From: Xestospongia bergquistia
Taxonomy: Eukaryota > Porifera > Demospongiae > Haplosclerida > Petrosiidae
Direction: 5' to 3'
DNA: 64,000 nucleotides
NCBI GenBank assembly: GCA_963965975.1
Contig: OZ014422.1
Location: forward strand, 744,001-808,000
In this document: positions 7,678 to 18,827 of the stretch, one piece after another
Layout: each line of letters opens with the position of its first letter
Position numbering within the stretch: the stretch's first letter is position 1
Notes under the pieces: model-generated
The model's database searches: none
What the model was told of the DNA's origin: nothing
Seen by the model: only the letters and a program-made list of their open reading frames with translations
Translations under genes and position numbers: made by a program

Positions 7678-10600
7678 TTATATTTTTATTGAATATCTTA
7701 CAAATGTCTGTTGGAGCTCTGAATACAAATCTTGACTAGCTGCTAATGGAGCACCAAGTACTGAAGCCTGTTCATGAACAGCTTTATCAACATCTCGCCA
7801 TGAGAGAATTGTTTGAGGATTATCTGACAATGATCGAAGAACATTTGCAAATGTTGGTCTACGACTGCTATCAGGATGCCTAAAGGGAGTGGTCATGTAA
7901 TTGGTATGTGTGGGTGTGAATCTGTGGAGTTAGCTTACCAACAGTGTATCATCAGTTGATAAATAGTTCTGGGACAGCCAGGAGGTGGGGGTAGACGATA
8001 ACCACTTTGTACTAAATCTAATGTCTAAAAACGAGAGGACTCCATATCACTCATAATAACAAAGGCAACATAATCATGTATATCATAAGATGGAGTAATA
8101 TTATATTATCATTACTTGTGGATTAGAAAATCCCTCAAATGGTTTATGTCCTACACTCCATATTTCATACATTAGTGCTGCAAAGCTCCACACATCACTA
8201 GCAGTAGAATAACGTTTGTATTGTAATGCCTAAACAAATGAGAATAGGTACTCAATCAGATAATAAGTTGTATTGCTGTTAACCTCAGGAGCCGTCCACT
8301 TCACTGGAATCTTTCCTCCATGAGAAACATAATAATTTTCATCTTCTAAATCACGTGACATTCCAAAGTCACCAATCTATGTTCATTTAAGAGTACAAAA
8401 AAAGATAGATTTAATATAAAATCATCTCTCTGTTATATCCTTACTTACCTTACAGATATTGTTCTCATCTAGAAATATATTTCTTGCTGCTAAATCACGA
8501 TGGACGAATGATTTCTTGGACAGATAGTTCATACCATTAGCTACCTGCTTACAAAACTCAAGAAATTGATTAGGAAGAGATGAGTCGACTGTGTCTCCAG
8601 ACCTGGAATAGTAATAAAGGAGAGTTAAATGAATGATGAACTAATAGATTACCTTGGTCGAATTGATTTCAAGTAATTATGAAGATCACCTCGTTGCATC
8701 AGTTCAATAATAATCATGACCTGAATGAAATTAATAAATAAACACGATTATCTCATCATAACAGCTGGTTGTGTAACAAGTTAACCACATTATCAGATAG
8801 GTAATACTATTACCTATGTAGGTTAGTGCTAAATTACAATCAAGTGTTAGTGTCAAGGGAATTCTTATATAAAATCAAATATGATCTTGCTTCTTCCCCC
8901 ACACAATGATGGTAGTATTTTGATAGGGGGTTAAATGATATTGAACAGATGGTATTGGAATGGAGGAGTGAAGGAATGAGGAAAACAAGGAATGGGAATG
9001 AGGATAAGAGATGGGAACAAGGAATGGGAATGAGGACATACAAAGAAGGGAAACACAGGAATACTCACAGGTTCTCCAACAGTGACCACTCCATATAATT
9101 GTACTACATTAGGATGACTGAATTGTCCCATAATGGCTGCTTCTTGAAGAAGCTTCACTTTTTCCTCCTCTGGTGAATTTGTAGTTACCATTTTAACTGC
9201 CATGCCCAATGGACCTTGTGAAGATTGCCACACCCCTTCACTGACAGTACCAAACTGTCCAGATCCCAGATGTTTAGTAATCCTAGAGGGAAATCCTCAT
9301 CATTAATTGTTATAATAAATTTATGAATATGCAGAAAACAGTAAACAAGAAACAAGTCTTAGTAAAAGGTAATGACATAATATTTACTATTGAGGTTGTA
9401 GTGAAGTCTATCAAGGAGAATTACAAATGATGTAATTTCATTAACTATTGTTAATTTGGTGAGGGGAACTTGTTATGTTTCAATATTTGGTTTGTTTACA
9501 AATTATTCAGACTTCACAACATTTTTTATTATACTGTATTTAGTAAACATTTGAGGCGTAAACATTGCTGCATGTAGTTGCATGTAAATTATTGAATTAT
9601 TAATTAATTTACACTTAAAATATAATACTAATAAACTCAAATTATTAAATTGTTACATGAAATATCACGTAAACATAATTACATAATAACTATGTGGAGG
9701 AGGAGGAAGGGTTAATTAAATAATACTAATTGATTTAAATTTTAAAAGAAATCATTTTTATTCTACAAGAGAACGAGGGAGAGAGAACCTTACTTTAATT
9801 TGTTACGTGGTATTTCCCGATATTTTCTTTTAGCCAATTGATCATAAAGCACATTAGCTTGAGCAGCTGGTCTCCAATAGATATCACTCTTCTCAAAAAA
9901 CATAATATTCTCGTATTTCTGTCGTTGAATCTGTTGTCATGGAAACACAATAAAATAAATTAGTAGGTACATGACACAGAGTTAGTCTAGTCACTGAGAT
10001 AACTCAAAATTTTGGTAATTATTCCAAACCTCAAAGTCTGTTTTTATCATATTATTAAAATTATGTAGTAGGGCATGTCCGTAATGATAACATTGTCAGA
10101 CACAACATGTCAACTTAATTCAATTATTAATAATTATCACTGATAATAATAGTACCATATCTAGTTAATTATAAAGGATATAACATGTGTAATAGTCATG
10201 CGTCTATTGAGAGCAAAATACATACAAACTATTGATAAAAGTATTGTATTGTTTAGTTAAATGTGAAAGATAAAACTTACCACTCCAAGTTGAGCATAAC
10301 TTCTGTCATCAAACATGGCTGACTCAGTATTTGATTTACCTACAACTTGTCTCTCTTCCTGTTTAGAGAGAAAGGAAAGGAGAGAGGGTCCAATAAAATG
10401 TTATCTATCAACACAAAATACATTTATTTTAAGGTATCACTTTACTACTATAGTCTATACATTGCATGAAGCCTTTCATTTTATGTAAAGGACACTATCA
10501 TTATTTCCATAACTAGTACAGTAACTAACATATCACACCCTCAAATCTAAGACATTAAAGTGTACTGATTGTTGACATAACTACAACACATATGGAGTGA

Positions 10601-13572
10601 ATCCTTACCTCAGTAGGTACAACACATATATCATTATCAAGAACACTATAATCATGAGCAGATGGAACAGGTTGAGTCTATTAAAATAACAACAACAAAA
10701 AAGAGAGTGTATGAATTATATTATAAAAACATGTTTACATTATCTTACTATCATCATTTATTTAAAGCTTATATTTATACACTGTAGGAACAGATTAAGA
10801 AATGCTCTTAAAATAACAACAACAAAGAAAGAATACTATGCTTATCATAATATATACTTACTTCTTCTAGTTATTATAATTAGAACTATAATTATAAACA
10901 AAGATTAAAATAAGAATAACATACATATCTAGTTTATTATATCTAGTGTATTATATCTAGTTTATTATATCTAGTGTATTATATCTAGTTTATTATATCT
11001 AGTGTATTATATCTAGTGTATTATATCAGGTGGACACATAATAACAACAAAAGAACATACCATGTCCTTATATAAGCTCATTATCTGCACAAAAATAACA
11101 TACTCTCAAAGCAACAACAACAAAGTAAGCATTAGTTAATAATTTAATCTACATAATAAACATTTATCATACCATTGTATCATCATTGTTCAGAGTATGT
11201 TGATTAGTAGAACTTTTAAGTGTATTGGTCCTTGATGACACAGGTTTTTCATAAGCTGCTGATGCATACGGTTCTATTTCATAAATCCCATTCTCTCCTA
11301 GGGGATATCTCGATTCATCCATTTCATAATGGTTGCTAGGTAACTCGGGAGCAGAAGCAGTGTTCCCCATTTCATAATGTCCTTCAATGTCATCAGATAC
11401 CAACTCATGATAGATACTAGTAAGGAGAGGGCCAGTGTTTTCTCCATTGTCTTGAGCCTGATCATAAATTGCTGTAGAACTTGATGTAACGTGTGCTTCA
11501 TCATAGAAAGCAGTAGGGCTATTTACAGGATCTTGATAGCCTGGGACATCATAATGATTGACAAAGTTATCACTGGTCATTGTAGAAGTTGTGCTCTCAA
11601 CACCATTTTCTGCAGCCTTTGAAATGACTCCTAAAAGAAAATAGATTTGAGTATGTGTCTCTAATTGTTTTAATCAAGTTTCATTCCCATGCTACTAGTC
11701 TCAATTCTATACTGCTAGTTTCATTCTTATGCATCCTTACAATTGGTATCCAACAGTTAAGAGGATAATTACAGGTTGTCAAATAACAGATATAAAGATA
11801 AAAAGATTGTTTAAAAACTAGTCATTAACACATCATTTTAACAAGTCTTTATGTTTCATTAATAAATTCTTTCACTATTTCTACAACAAACCACTAGTCA
11901 GTTTTCACCTTGTCAACACAACATTTGTCAACCCAACAAACAATTATAAAATAATGAGTCCATAATAGACACTTCTCTAAATAAAGGAAATTTAAAGTCA
12001 CATCCTGTGACAAAGTGAATTAGATATCTATCAAACCACAACAATTGATATCATACGTTTGATGGTATCCAGTATGAAAATCCTTAGAAATAGCAAAATT
12101 AATATAATTTAATAGCCTAACCCAAGAAATGTTCAATTACTATTAACTAAACCTCAATTCATTACCACATGGTACTAGTCATGTACATAATTAATATTAC
12201 TATATATGTCCCGTTGTTTATTTACCTAAATATGTAGGATTGTCCATAGGGTATGTATCTACTTGGCCATTAGTATGAACTGTAGGAGTGTAAGATCTCT
12301 CCTTATACCTTCTCTTCCCCAATGCAAACAACAATATTAGTATAAACACCAGTGCTATAATGATAATGATTAATAGTCCAGATACAACTGCTCCAGCTAG
12401 TGCTGCTGTTGAAAGAGAACTTCCTGTTGGTCCAATACCAGGTATTATAACAGATGAGGAGGGTGTTGTGGATTGTGGTGTGCCATCTGTTGTGGTTATA
12501 ACTGGTGGTGTGGATACAGGAACAGACTGAGATGTAGGAGGTTGGGTTTCGCTAGGTACTGAACTAACAATGAGAGTTGAAGTAGTAGTTGATCTAACTG
12601 ATGTGAGACTTGATGTGATAACACTTGATGTGGTAATACTGATAGACATAGACATGAGAGGTGTGGACGACATTGATGTGATGGGTTCACTAGTCATTGA
12701 TAAACTAAATGTCTCTGTTGTGCTAGATGTTATTGTTGAAGAGATATCTTCAGATGACACAGAGACAGATGGTGTATTAGCAATGGTTTTAGAAGATGAT
12801 GGAGAAGGTTCACTATCAGTAGTTGTAGTTGATGATATGACAACTATTGTTGATGTAGAGGATGATATAACTATAAAATTATATTAATAATTTATTATAA
12901 CTTGCAGAAATATAACTTACTAATTTCAACAGTAACAAGTGGAAAGTATTGACTCTTTCTGTCATTAACAAATATATCAGTTAACATAGTACTAGCAGTT
13001 ATTTCTAGTTCAAAATACTCAGGAGCATTTGAGCCTTGATCAATAAAATAAGGTAATAGTCTTGTACGTAGACTACCACTGTTAGGGATAATTCTCATTC
13101 CAAATATATCACCAGGTAATACTGTGATAGGTTGATTAGGAGTATATTGATATAATGAGGAATTTAGTGATGTCACTTCTCCTTCTACAGAACCAATATG
13201 ATTAACTCTGTTATAAAGTCCATTATCATCTCGTTTTCTCCATGTTTCCATTAATGGATATTCTAGTGTTTGTTGTCCTCCAGGTGTCTCTTCAAGGGCA
13301 GCAATTATAACTTTAGAAATTTCAGCTTCACAAGAAAAATTCATAGAAAAAAACAACAGCTGAAGACCAGCTCTTTCAGTAGCACCATCTATACTATCAT
13401 TTATGAATGATTGAGTAGGAAACCCTTCACTACATTGAGCTTGAACAGTAGCTATGGACAAATAATATAAAGTGTTGTCTATGTCAGTATCTCTTAAGTT
13501 AGACTACTAACCTGATGAACAATATAGTAAGTAGACAAGACATAGGTAGACAAAATGGAGTAGAGATGACAT
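7678..13572 (-). CDS. Receptor C: receptor tyrosine kinase with one ectodomain module and a dense tyrosine docking segment
   Basis: Complete receptor tyrosine kinase. Exon 13572-13512 encodes the signal peptide ([17 protein letters not shown]). Exon 13451-12921 is one ectodomain module ([23 protein letters not shown]). Exon 12870-12226 is a Ser/Thr stalk, the helix with [18 protein letters not shown] and a basic stop, ending NPTYLG. Exon 11630-11173 is packed with tyrosines (YDVP, FYDEA, IYDQA, SIYHEL, HYEM twice, IYEIEPY). Four smaller cytoplasmic exons near 11090-11067, 10680-10610, 10357-10283 and 9935-9790 follow; the first encodes only eight residues. Kinase exons run from about 9283 to 7678, with [26 protein letters not shown] and KWTAPE visible. 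The tail has ASVLGAPL and LYSELQ. The cytoplasmic introns are unusually long for this window (300-600 bases). Confidence 0.85.
9300..9780 (-). other. Intron of receptor C
   Basis: This stretch of about 480 bases lies between the last juxtamembrane exon and the first kinase exon of receptor C. It is AT-rich and I see no coding exon, RNA gene or clear repeat in it. Confidence 0.6.
10925..11030. repeat. 14-base tandem repeat in receptor C intron
   Basis: About seven copies of a 14-base unit, TATCTAGTTTATTA alternating with TATCTAGTGTATTA. It lies in the intron upstream of the exon encoding [11 protein letters not shown]. Confidence 0.85.
11640..12220 (-). other. Intron of receptor C between the membrane exon and the tyrosine-rich exon
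   Basis: About 590 bases without a convincing coding exon on either strand. No repeat array is evident. It is one of the longest introns in the cluster. Confidence 0.5.
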
Positions 13573-13786: not shown

Positions 13787-15667
13787 TTACATATAGTCAT
13801 CATCATTAACTACTGGTAATTGTCCATATGTAATATTATCTTGTGTTGGTACTAGTTCAACTAATGTGACTTGATGTTCTTTATTTGATAATGTCATGTA
13901 CTCAGTATTATCATCATCAGTTTTAATGGAGGAGGTAATATAGGAAGGATTTACTGCAGTAAGTGGATCACTCTTCACTGCTATAGTCTGTAAAGAAATA
14001 GTTTTATATAACAATGATATCATAGAAGACTTACTGAATAAGTTGATGTACTATGTGTAAGAACATCATCATATTCCTCCTCATCATTATTGGAAGCTAT
14101 TTCAGTAGTAATATCATTTAGTATAAAGTACTATTAATAACTAACCATTATATTGTTTTTTATATCTTATTATAACTATTATTTATATACAAATACAGTA
14201 CTAACTATGATTAATATGACTAATATAATAGTTAGTACAAGTGCTAGTACTGTAAGAGGTAGACCAATGTATAGTACAAGAGTTAATGATATGTCATCAT
14301 TTACAATTGGAATTGTTGGAAGTGAAGATACAGTGACAGCCTCTATAAAATGTCCAATAGTTACATGAATAAATATTTTATGTTTTGACATTATACATAT
14401 TATAAAATTAGATGTTATTAGTTCTCTGTGAACCATACTGGAATCTTTTTGAGATTGGTAGAGTACTACTGATGGAGTGATACTGTTGTGGTTTCAAAAT
14501 TAATGTTAATTGTACTAATTGTTATTTTAGAAGTCATTTTAAATACTAGTTTACTGTCTGTTGTAAAAATTATAAATCAGAGTCTAAGATTAAGGAAAGT
14601 ATATAATTAAAAGTCCAAGAGTCATCACTAGTACTATTAGGCTTCTAAATCATGTAGTTCTCACTGGTTGAGGAATAAACCCAATTTAGAATATATCAAC
14701 AAAGCTATGACAATGCAAATTGAAAGTAACTAATAAAGCTTGGGAAATAACTTAGAAATATGGATCTAGTTTACTGCTCTGACCAATCAGATTAAGTTAT
14801 ACATACTTTAGTGATACTATTGTTATACCTGTGGTACTAGATGATGGTAATATTGATGTAGTAACAGTTGATGATATTGTTGGTATTATGGAACATGTAG
14901 AGACTTGTGCTTCAGTACAATAGTTTGGATTAGCCTGTTTTACAAGTACCAGACTATCCTCATATTGTTGTAATAGACTCTCACTAGCATCTTCTACAAC
15001 AGTCAACAATGACAAAACATGCTTAAATTAGTTCACTTACTAAATATCCAACCAATTAATGGATTTATTCCTTTCATGATCTTTGCATTACACAATGATA
15101 AGTCACAGTCTCGTTTTGTTACATTCTCCCAGTAATAAATGTCTACATCTCCTGTATCTTCATATAATAAATGTAACTGGTTTACTATATCTGGTCTAAT
15201 ATATACTCCAACTATATAACCAGCTCTTATGGGAAGCAATGCATCACTAAATTGAAGTGTAACATTTATTCTGTTATCATCTGCTTCATCTCCTTTGTAT
15301 GAGTTTCCATAGACAACATGATAGATATTGTTTTTGACAGAGTCTGGTTTAAACACTTGAAACTCAATGCTGTTATCAATGGTTGTATTACCAGTGATAT
15401 GAGCATACCATTGATCAATAGTTCCATCACAAGAGAAGGTCCATGAAGGAATAAGTAGTTGTATACCACCAGTAAATGTATCACCAGTGAAAGTGGCTTC
15501 ATTGTAAGAGGGAAGAGAACGGATACAACTGCTGGCATTAACTGTTAAATGAAAGACAGTTTATTAGCTAATAAGATATAATAGTAAAACTAACTTGACA
15601 AAAAGGTGACACACAATAGCAACATAGCAATTAATGGATTCATTATTGTCATGATCATCATCTTCAT
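13787..15667 (-). CDS. Receptor D: kinase-less receptor with ITIM/ITSM-like tail
   Basis: Single-pass receptor of the same family but without a kinase. The start exon (15667 to about 15595) gives a signal peptide (MNPLIAMLLLCVTFLS). One ectodomain module follows (about 15542-15048: WTFSCDGTIDQW, RAGYIVGVYI, PLIGWIF), then a Thr/Ser-rich stalk exon (about 15010-14805). The membrane helix exon (14342-14202: LVLYIGLPLTVLALVLTIIL) leads to a cytoplasmic tail in exons 14096-14035 and 13987-13787. The tail ends in a stop and holds EEYDDV, STYSTI, NPSYIT, TEYMTL and ITYGQL. ITYGQL and STYSTI fit the ITIM consensus (I/V/L/S)xYxx(L/I/V), and TEYMTL resembles an ITSM. Such motifs recruit SH2 phosphatases or adaptors in other animals; that role is inferred here. 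The stalk-to-helix splice is not fully resolved, and a Thr-rich candidate exon lies near 14485-14560. Confidence 0.7.
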
Positions 15668-15958: not shown

Positions 15959-18827
15959 TTATACAGTTGATGAAATATATGCCATTTGTAAGTCTGAATA
16001 TAAGTTCTCAGATACACTTAAATCTACGCCTAAAAGAGAAGCTTGTGGGTGGACTGCTCGATCTTCATCAGACCATTGTAACAAATTCAATTCATCACCT
16101 GACAAAAGAGCCTCAAGTTCTTCAAATGAAGGTCGTCTAGAGGTCTCTGGATTCCTAGATAAGGATCACAGATTGTTTAAATATTTAATGTTAAATAGAC
16201 AATCATTAACATTAATATTTTGTCAATAGGAAATCACAACTAACCAACAAGTTATCATCATTTTATAAATCATTCTAGGACATCCAGGAGGAGGTGGAAG
16301 TCGGTATCCATCTTCAACCTGGCGAAGAGTCTAAGGAAGTAGAGATTCTCCTTTAAAAATACTTAATAGTTAAAAAGACCTGTTGATTTGTTTGTTGAGA
16401 AAATGGCTTCTTTCCTAGGCTCCATATTTCAAAAACCAATACTCCATAACTCCATACATCACTAGCTGAGGAGTATTTACGAAAAGAGAGAGCCTACAAA
16501 ATTTAATGTTAATAATTAAATGGAACATCTCAATGGGTACCTCCGGTGCTGTCCATTTTATTGGGATTTTGCCACCTTTTGAGATGTAATAATCTTCGTC
16601 CATTAAATCCCGAGCAAGACCAAAATCCCCAACCTATTATAATGATAAATTTATGTACTATAATTTTCCTAATATTAATTTGTTTAATGATGTTAGTATT
16701 CTATTGGCAATGTCTGTTTATGTAATGAAAGGTCCCAAATTATCTCTTAATAAGAAGAATATCACCAAAAATTAATGTATTAAATATTTATATTCTAAAA
16801 TTATAACTGTGCTGTTTATATAAATGTATTTTGATAAATTGAATTAACTGATTAACTAAATTTATTATTATAATCAACTTTAGTGAATATCAACTTATGA
16901 AAGAACACGTCAACACACAAAGGGTTAAAATATACATTATATATAATCACAGATGAACTCTGTGATAGTATTTATGTGATAAGTATTTTCCAAGAAAGTT
17001 AAGATGTAAACTTATCTAAAAAGGGTTAATTATCCAATAAAGAAGCCCAAACTAATCTTTGTAATGTGGTTTTTAATAGAGTCAATATTTCAACAACATA
17101 GTAATAGTAGTAGTATTAGTAATAATAGTAGTATTAGTAATAATAGTAGTATTAGTAATAATAGTAGTATTAGTAATAATAGTAGTATTAGTAATAGTAG
17201 TAGTATTAGTAATAGTAGTAGTATTAGTAATAGTAGTAGTATTAGTAATAATAGTAGTATTAGTAATAATAGTAGTATTAGTAATAATAGTAGTATTAGT
17301 AATAATAGTAGTATTAGTAATAGTAGTAGTATTAGTAATAATAGTAGTATTAGTAATAATAGTAGTATTAGTAATAATAGTAGTATTAGTAATAGTAGTA
17401 GTATTAATAATAATAGTAGTATTAGTAATAATAGTAGTATTAGTAATAATAGTAGTATTAGTAATAGTAGTAGTATTAGTAATAATAGTAGTATTAGTAA
17501 TAATAGTAGTATTAGTAATAGTAGTAGTATTAGTAATAGTAGTAGTATTAGTAATAATAGTAGTATTAGTAATAATAGTAGTATTAGTAATAATAGTAGT
17601 ATTAGTAATAATAGTAGTATTAGTAATAGTAGTAGTATTAATAATAGTAGTAGTATTAGTAATAATAGTAGTATTAATAATAATAGTAGTATTAGTAATA
17701 ATAGTAGTATTAATAATAATAGTAGTATTAGTAATAGTAGTAGTATTAGTAATAATAGTAGTATTAATAATAATAGTAGTATTAGTAATAGTAGTAGTAT
17801 TAGTAATAATAGTAGTATTAGTAATAGTAGTAGTATTAGTAATAATAGTAGTATTAGTAATAATAGTAGTATTAGTAATAATAGTAGTATTAGTAATAAT
17901 AGTAGTATTATTAATAATAGTAGTATTAATAATAATAGTAGTATTAGTAATAATAGTATTATTAGTAATAATAATAGACAGTTGGACTATAATATGACTT
18001 GTTTACTATATTTTGGACATAAACTGTGACATGGACAATGATAGTTGTAAAGATAATCAACTATATATCTAGTTACTTCACTAGCTATAACAATTATATT
18101 AAATTAATAATCATTAAAATATAACAGAATTTTAGTTATTAATGTTTATTTTAACAAAACTATAATAAACCAAACAAGTCTGATTTTATAATAAATAAAA
18201 ACTATTTGTTTACTAAAACAACACTAGTGTGTTAGGTTAACAGATGAATAGAGATTAAATTAATTAATTACCTTACATGTGAGATCTTCACTTAACAATA
18301 TATTCCTAGCAGCCAGATCTCTATGAATGAAACATTTCTTTGACAGGTACTTCATACCTGAGGCAATCTGACGACAAAAACCGAGTAGGAGAGGAGGTAC
18401 TGTAAGATCAACATTGTTATCTGAAGATCTATTAATAAAACAAATGACATATTGTTACTGTGTTTCATATTACTCAGGTATTAATTTTTGCAAATAATTC
18501 TTCAGATCTCCATTAGTCATAAGTTCTAACACTAACATAATCTATTAAATTTAATAAATTAAATTTTAAACATTATTTCTAGATACTCTCACTGGTTCTC
18601 CGACAGTCACCACTCCATATAACTTGACAATATTAGGATGATGAAACTGACCCATAATGGCTGCCTCTTGTAGGAACTTAATCTTATCAGTTATTGAAGA
18701 GTTTGCTTTCAATGTCTTTGCTGCAATTGGTTCTGAGAATGATGAAGTTTCCCATAGACCCCTTAGAACAACCCCAAAATTACCAGTTCCCAAGGGTTCA
18801 GCAAGACTAGGAAAAAATTAAACTTTA

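Follow-up and report, generated by a model that had tools for sequence, protein, structure and literature searches.

Kinase-less genes with an ITIM/ITSM-like tail share ectodomains with receptor tyrosine kinases in the sponge Xestospongia bergquistia

What does a receptor without a kinase do in the middle of a cluster of receptor tyrosine kinase genes? The question is raised by one gene in the window, the stretch of 64,000 nucleotides that we analyzed (C12:744001-808000; positions without a contig name are those of the window). The initial annotation described a signal peptide, one ectodomain module of the neighboring kinases, a single membrane helix and a tail bearing three motifs that resemble those of inhibitory immune receptors, and it suggested that the protein may be a phosphorylation substrate and brake for the kinases beside it. 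We examined the gene and its relatives across the 146 Mb assembly, which comprises 21 contigs.

The gene lies on the minus strand, from a start ATG at 15667 to a stop TAA at 13789-13787, and was modeled with six exons, GT-AG introns and compatible phases (Table 1). The parts named in the initial annotation are all present in this model, whose product of about 390 residues has a signal peptide, one ectodomain module, a stalk, a single membrane helix and a tyrosine-bearing tail with STYSTI (which spans the intron 5/6 joint), TEYMTL and ITYGQL, and also NPSY. The tail had been put at about 87 residues, which is the length of the open frame holding exon 6, intron included; exons 5 and 6 together encode 98 residues. 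The ectodomain, of a type that we call E1, is a beta jelly roll by structure prediction (pLDDT 77).

Table 1. Coordinates of the kinase-less gene, its frame break and the adjoining receptor kinase genes in the window
Feature	Position	Strand	Remarks
Next gene: receptor kinase with ectodomain E2	7681..13572 (end approximate)	-	Kinase exon matches 9296-9066, 8604-8446, 8376-8281, 8223-8113
Exon 6: NPSY, TEYMTL, ITYGQL, then stop	13787..13987	-	
Exon 5: tail, first part (EEEYDDVL, STYS)	14035..14130	-	
8-base insertion (GTATATAA), exact place ambiguous	14183..14190	-	Absent from 12 other aligned cassettes; family frame shifted to stop
Exon 4: membrane helix, in tail-reaching model	14206..14342	-	Donor GTTAGT at 14205
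Intron 3, contains mosaic joint	14343..14828	-	blastn of gene against C12:623k and C12:605k
Exon 3: stalk, Ser/Thr-rich end	14829..14993	-	Homologous to stalk of kinase at C12:624k
Exon 2: ectodomain module E1	15041..15541	-	84% identity to C12:623k kinase, 90% to C12:591k
Exon 1: start codon and signal peptide (MKMMIMTIMNPLIAMLLLCVTFLS)	15595..15667	-	Donor GTTAGT at 15594
Upstream receptor kinase gene, 3' part (kinase exons)	15959..18817	-	

The claim that no kinase is hidden in the gene held. A tblastn search with five kinase exon queries (E up to 0.01) found no kinase exon inside it, and the ATG of the next gene stands at 13572-13570, only 214 bases on. The closest kinase exons found by tblastn were at 16377-18814 upstream and at 8113-9296 downstream. 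A Pfam scan of the protein returned no family above cut-off; with no cytoplasmic kinase exon either, the gene was not classed as a receptor tyrosine kinase. Between the kinase exons of the upstream gene, positions 17100-17980 hold a long repeat with units of about 18 bases (like AGTAGTATTAGTAATAAT).

Comparison by blastn showed that the gene is a mosaic. At the DNA level, positions 15589-14787 matched a complete receptor kinase gene at C12:623-630k with 87.5% identity; this main match stopped at 14787, and three short pieces of 70-78% identity extended it to 14484. From the other side, positions 14380-13786 were 86.4% identical to a kinase-less cassette at C12:605k (blastn) and positions 14334-13766 were 89.1% identical to a cassette at C12:504k, so that the front and back matches meet within intron 3. 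The copy at C12:605k is also mosaic: its front matches the next kinase gene of the window over 950 bp at 90.8% identity, and its back is the cassette. Three ectodomain types, E1, E2 and E3, each occur on a kinase and on the shared tail. Identity between kinase and kinase-less members was 84% for E1, 78-90% for E2 (the next gene of the window against five kinase-less genes at C12:600-611k) and 80-88% for E3 (kinase-less copies at C12:503-506k against the kinase at C12:723-718k); the E3 copies at C12:498-501k were only 55-56% identical to the proven kinase. The genes thus have the anatomy of paired receptors: they are clustered, and highly similar ectodomains stand on differing signaling parts.

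The loss of the kinase is not peculiar to the window. When the whole genome was searched with the membrane-plus-tail part, the last tail exon turned up at 18 sites, most of which belong to tandem arrays that lack kinase exons. Five sites lie at C12:494-504k, another five at C12:601-611k and a further five at C12:685-700k; the rest are the window copy and two sites on contig C4. Adjacent tail copies are 2.2-4.1 kb apart. Exon 6 of the other copies shares 79-92% identity with that of the window copy, C12:604084 (53%) being the one exception. Neither two whole arrays (13.4 and 22.8 kb) nor the examined pieces of the other tail arrays yielded a kinase exon in the same five-query tblastn. Being kinase-less is therefore the usual state of the tail family and not a local loss. 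At C12:685k, 689k and 695k and at C4:5337k, a membrane and/or juxtamembrane part of the kinase type precedes the tail exon, which occupies the place expected for a kinase. In the E3 arrays, a second, degenerate tail-like exon (SNPLIVIITFYIISSIKTTDYMTLSNKEYQVTLI), either a relic or an alternative last exon, lies about 215 bases past the tail stop at C12:499206-499105 and at 11 similar places.

Next to be considered is how far the tail is an ITIM/ITSM-like one. Counted among young paralogues in one genome, I-x-Y-x-Q-[LV] (I[T/A]Y[E/G/K]Q[L/V]) was present in 18/18 tail copies, T-x-Y-x-x-[LIV] in 15 and NPSY in 16, and the STYS/STYSTI tyrosine was present in 5 copies and replaced by His in the other 13. 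The initial description is thus sustained in part: the family mostly keeps two core motifs, TEYMTL and I[T/A]Y[E/G]QL, 24 residues apart, and the third is seldom there. Tail tyrosines that vary freely among orthologues had been named as grounds for rejecting the idea, and among these paralogues the STYSTI tyrosine does vary in this way while those of the other two motifs do not. STYSTI and ITYGQL fit [SIVL]xYxx[ILV]; TEYMTL, which the ITSM letters of PD-1 resemble, fits only a loosened form of the ITSM pattern TxYxx[VI]. In shufflings of the window tail, at least three matches of [SIVLT]xYxx[ILV] had a P value of 0.0097 and at least two strict matches of [SIVL]xYxx[ILV] a P value of 0.045; for a family-like tail, two loose motifs were expected by chance with a P value of 0.078. 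Compared with a juxtamembrane control of 7 hand-picked stretches from 4 kinases of the cluster, motif tyrosines were enriched in the window tail (3/6 versus 1/39, Fisher P value = 0.005), and the two-motif core gave 2/7 versus 1/39 (Fisher P value = 0.056). Statistical support for the two-motif core is thus weak (P values of 0.056 to 0.078).

None of the 18 tail exons contained an internal stop, and all their length differences were multiples of three. The tail pN/pS was 2.6 (95% interval, 1.1-10.3; 17 copies, with 604084 left out). This value above 1 indicates no purifying selection at the protein level, and the likeness of such young copies is therefore no proof of function. For the window ectodomain, pN/pS was 1.00 against the kinase counterpart and 0.55 against C12:591k, which indicates that it too is under little constraint.

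The window copy itself carries a frame break beside the membrane helix. In intact cassettes, the membrane exon continues into a basic stop-transfer segment (RYRKQYN or a variant), followed in most by a 49-base intron. This family splice gave an open tail in 9 of the 11 script-anchored cassettes, and two more were judged open by eye, so that 11/13 membrane cassettes are open. Applied to the window copy, it reads VSTVFVYK and terminates; another cassette, the one at C12:699851, is also out of frame. Because the 8-base insertion breaks the frame of the family splice, the joint between exons 4 and 5 is uncertain and the tail of the window copy can be reached only by another splice. That would need a non-family donor, of which GTTAGT at 14205 looks best and several others look weaker, joined mostly to the acceptor before 14130, and the basic stop-transfer segment would be omitted. 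Such a tail-reaching splice is possible, and provided that it is used, the window copy has the architecture of an ITIM/ITSM receptor. The copy may be a weakened, failing or dying member of its family.

Candidate readers of a phosphorylated tail are encoded in the same genome. Searches with SH2 and phosphatase profiles, combined with inspection of the DNA, identified nine loci of the SH2-SH2-phosphatase (SHP) type; humans have two SHP-type genes. Seven loci are single open frames (C7:8318k and C3:916k, 1265k, 1268k, 1273k, 1275k and 1282k), and the remaining ones are an interrupted frame at C3:1271-1273k and an intron-bearing gene at C6:199k; a phosphatase-only piece is additional to these nine. 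All seven single frames have the order SH2-SH2-PTP and pass the Pfam thresholds for both domains; they also have the two SH2 arginines, as well as the Cys and Arg of the P-loop. The P-loop reads HCS[AS]GIGRTG in six of them and QCSNGIGRTG in one, and WPD is found in five and WPE in two. The C7 protein matched PTPN11 entries over the whole core (E value = 1.1e-196). The intronless state of the copies suggests retrocopying and tandem duplication. By eye, ten clustered SH2-kinase open frames with a Src-like arrangement were also counted at C6:1621-1697k (1.62-1.70 Mb), and one more at 7.99 Mb.

What the locus presents is a mosaic anatomy, three ectodomain types on kinases and on the tail, no kinase exon and two mostly conserved motifs. 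We tentatively favor the explanation that the kinase-less family members are phosphatase-recruiting partners of the receptor kinases with the same ectodomain. In a tandem family made by joining a receptor kinase front (signal, ectodomain and stalk) to a shared membrane-plus-tail cassette, the kinase-less receptor would meet the same ligand as its kinase counterpart and enter the clusters that the latter forms. There its tail would be phosphorylated, by the kinase counterpart or by a Src-type kinase, and the two spaced phosphotyrosines of TEYMTL and I[T/A]Y[E/G]QL could dock an SHP-type phosphatase, which would tune the kinase signal, most likely down. The sign could also be positive, as SHP2-type enzymes promote kinase signaling too. 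The window copy would join this scheme only via a donor other than the family's. The inhibitory role first proposed for it therefore has a mixed standing: the absence of a kinase, the ectodomain in common with a kinase, the two motifs that the family mostly keeps and the presence of SHP-type genes agree with it, and the unconserved STYSTI, the tail pN/pS above 1, the fit of the same residues to sorting signals and the disturbed frame of the copy itself lend it no support.

A somewhat less probable explanation is that of a decoy or dominant-negative receptor, which would bind the shared ligand or dimerize with the kinase and block it by lacking a kinase of its own, with NPSY and YxxPhi signals for endocytosis and turnover instead of for the docking of a phosphatase. 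By sequence the tail does carry endocytic sorting motifs, as YMTL, Y[E/G]QL and YDDV are of the YxxPhi form and NPSY is of the NPxY form; the same residues thus fit both ITIM use and sorting use. NPxY also occurs in the juxtamembrane parts of three of the four neighboring kinases examined, and the rest of the tail evolves freely, both of which suit a sorting role. AP2 binding is not known to need the residue at position -2 of the motif. The -2 residues are nevertheless kept (T in 17/18 and I in 18/18 copies), which argues against sorting alone, although young copies share most of their residues anyway.

We consider it unlikely that these genes are non-functional by-products, that is, chimaeras and truncated copies left by unequal exchange in a fast-changing kinase cluster, with the window copy decaying and the ITIM likeness due to chance. 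Such an origin would suit the 8-base insertion, the out-of-frame membrane cassette at C12:699851, the pN/pS of the tail and the four copies whose tail exon follows a kinase-type membrane and/or juxtamembrane part, but it fits poorly with the open frames of 11/13 membrane cassettes and all 18 tail exons, with length differences in multiples of three and with the recurrence of the same arrangement in three ectodomain types. Read-through, by which some transcripts would splice the ectodomain to the kinase of the next gene and the kinase-less form would be one isoform, appears very improbable. The two genes do stand head to tail, 214 bases apart, but the next gene is provided with a start, a signal exon and an ectodomain of its own, and two whole arrays of 13-23 kb lack any kinase exon.

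Receptors that come in activating and inhibitory pairs are known from Ig- and lectin-type vertebrate families and from a few invertebrate allorecognition loci. The vertebrate ones (KIR, LILR, PIR and SIRP) are described as clustered families with very similar ectodomains and opposite cytoplasmic parts (PMC3533184), and the sponge genes resemble that description in combining similar ectodomains with differing cytoplasmic parts in clustered genes. They differ in that a complete receptor tyrosine kinase takes the part of the presumed activating partner, in place of an adaptor-coupled short-tail receptor, and in that the fold of the ectodomain is a predicted jelly roll instead of one of the Ig or C-type lectin kind. 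Among invertebrates, the nearest parallels that we found are the fester co-receptors (FcoR) of Botryllus and the alr proteins of Hydractinia, which are ITIM-bearing receptors of clustered recognition loci; as described in PMC12065747, FcoR belongs to the Ig superfamily and is paired with fester family members and not with same-ectodomain kinases. The partner thus appears to differ in both parallels, and the fold does so for FcoR. In the account of PD-1 in PMC7078208, an ITIM (Y223) and an ITSM (Y248) lie 25 residues apart, close to the spacing of 24 in the tail family; the motif order is reversed in the sponge tail, whose ITSM-like motif has L at +3. The likeness is one of motifs and spacing. 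EphA10 and EphB6, described as kinase-dead receptor tyrosine kinases (PMC6993872), are likewise RTK-like receptors without catalytic function; in the sponge, a separate shared tail cassette replaces the kinase, and it does so for three ectodomain types.

A more far-reaching and doubtful idea is that of a home-grown paired-receptor system, in which the activating partner would be a receptor tyrosine kinase and the inhibitory partner would carry the ectodomain of that kinase on a tail that recruits phosphatases. The system would be renewed by repeated swapping of fronts and backs within the cluster, would be matched by the expanded SHP-type set and would have its use in the recognition of cells or of self and non-self. 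If true, such a pair of kinase and anti-kinase with one ectodomain in common would mean that an early-branching animal had solved the problem of paired receptors separately. These candidate recognition receptors are directly testable, as the genes, tails and putative phosphatase readers are all located by coordinate. A tail of another kind also occurs on one of the three ectodomain types: at C12:591627-593695, the E1 ectodomain stands, without a kinase exon, on an unrelated tyrosine-rich tail (YDNV, YNNM and YNEV), and this gene is followed at 594k and 596k by two further single-pass genes without a kinase exon.
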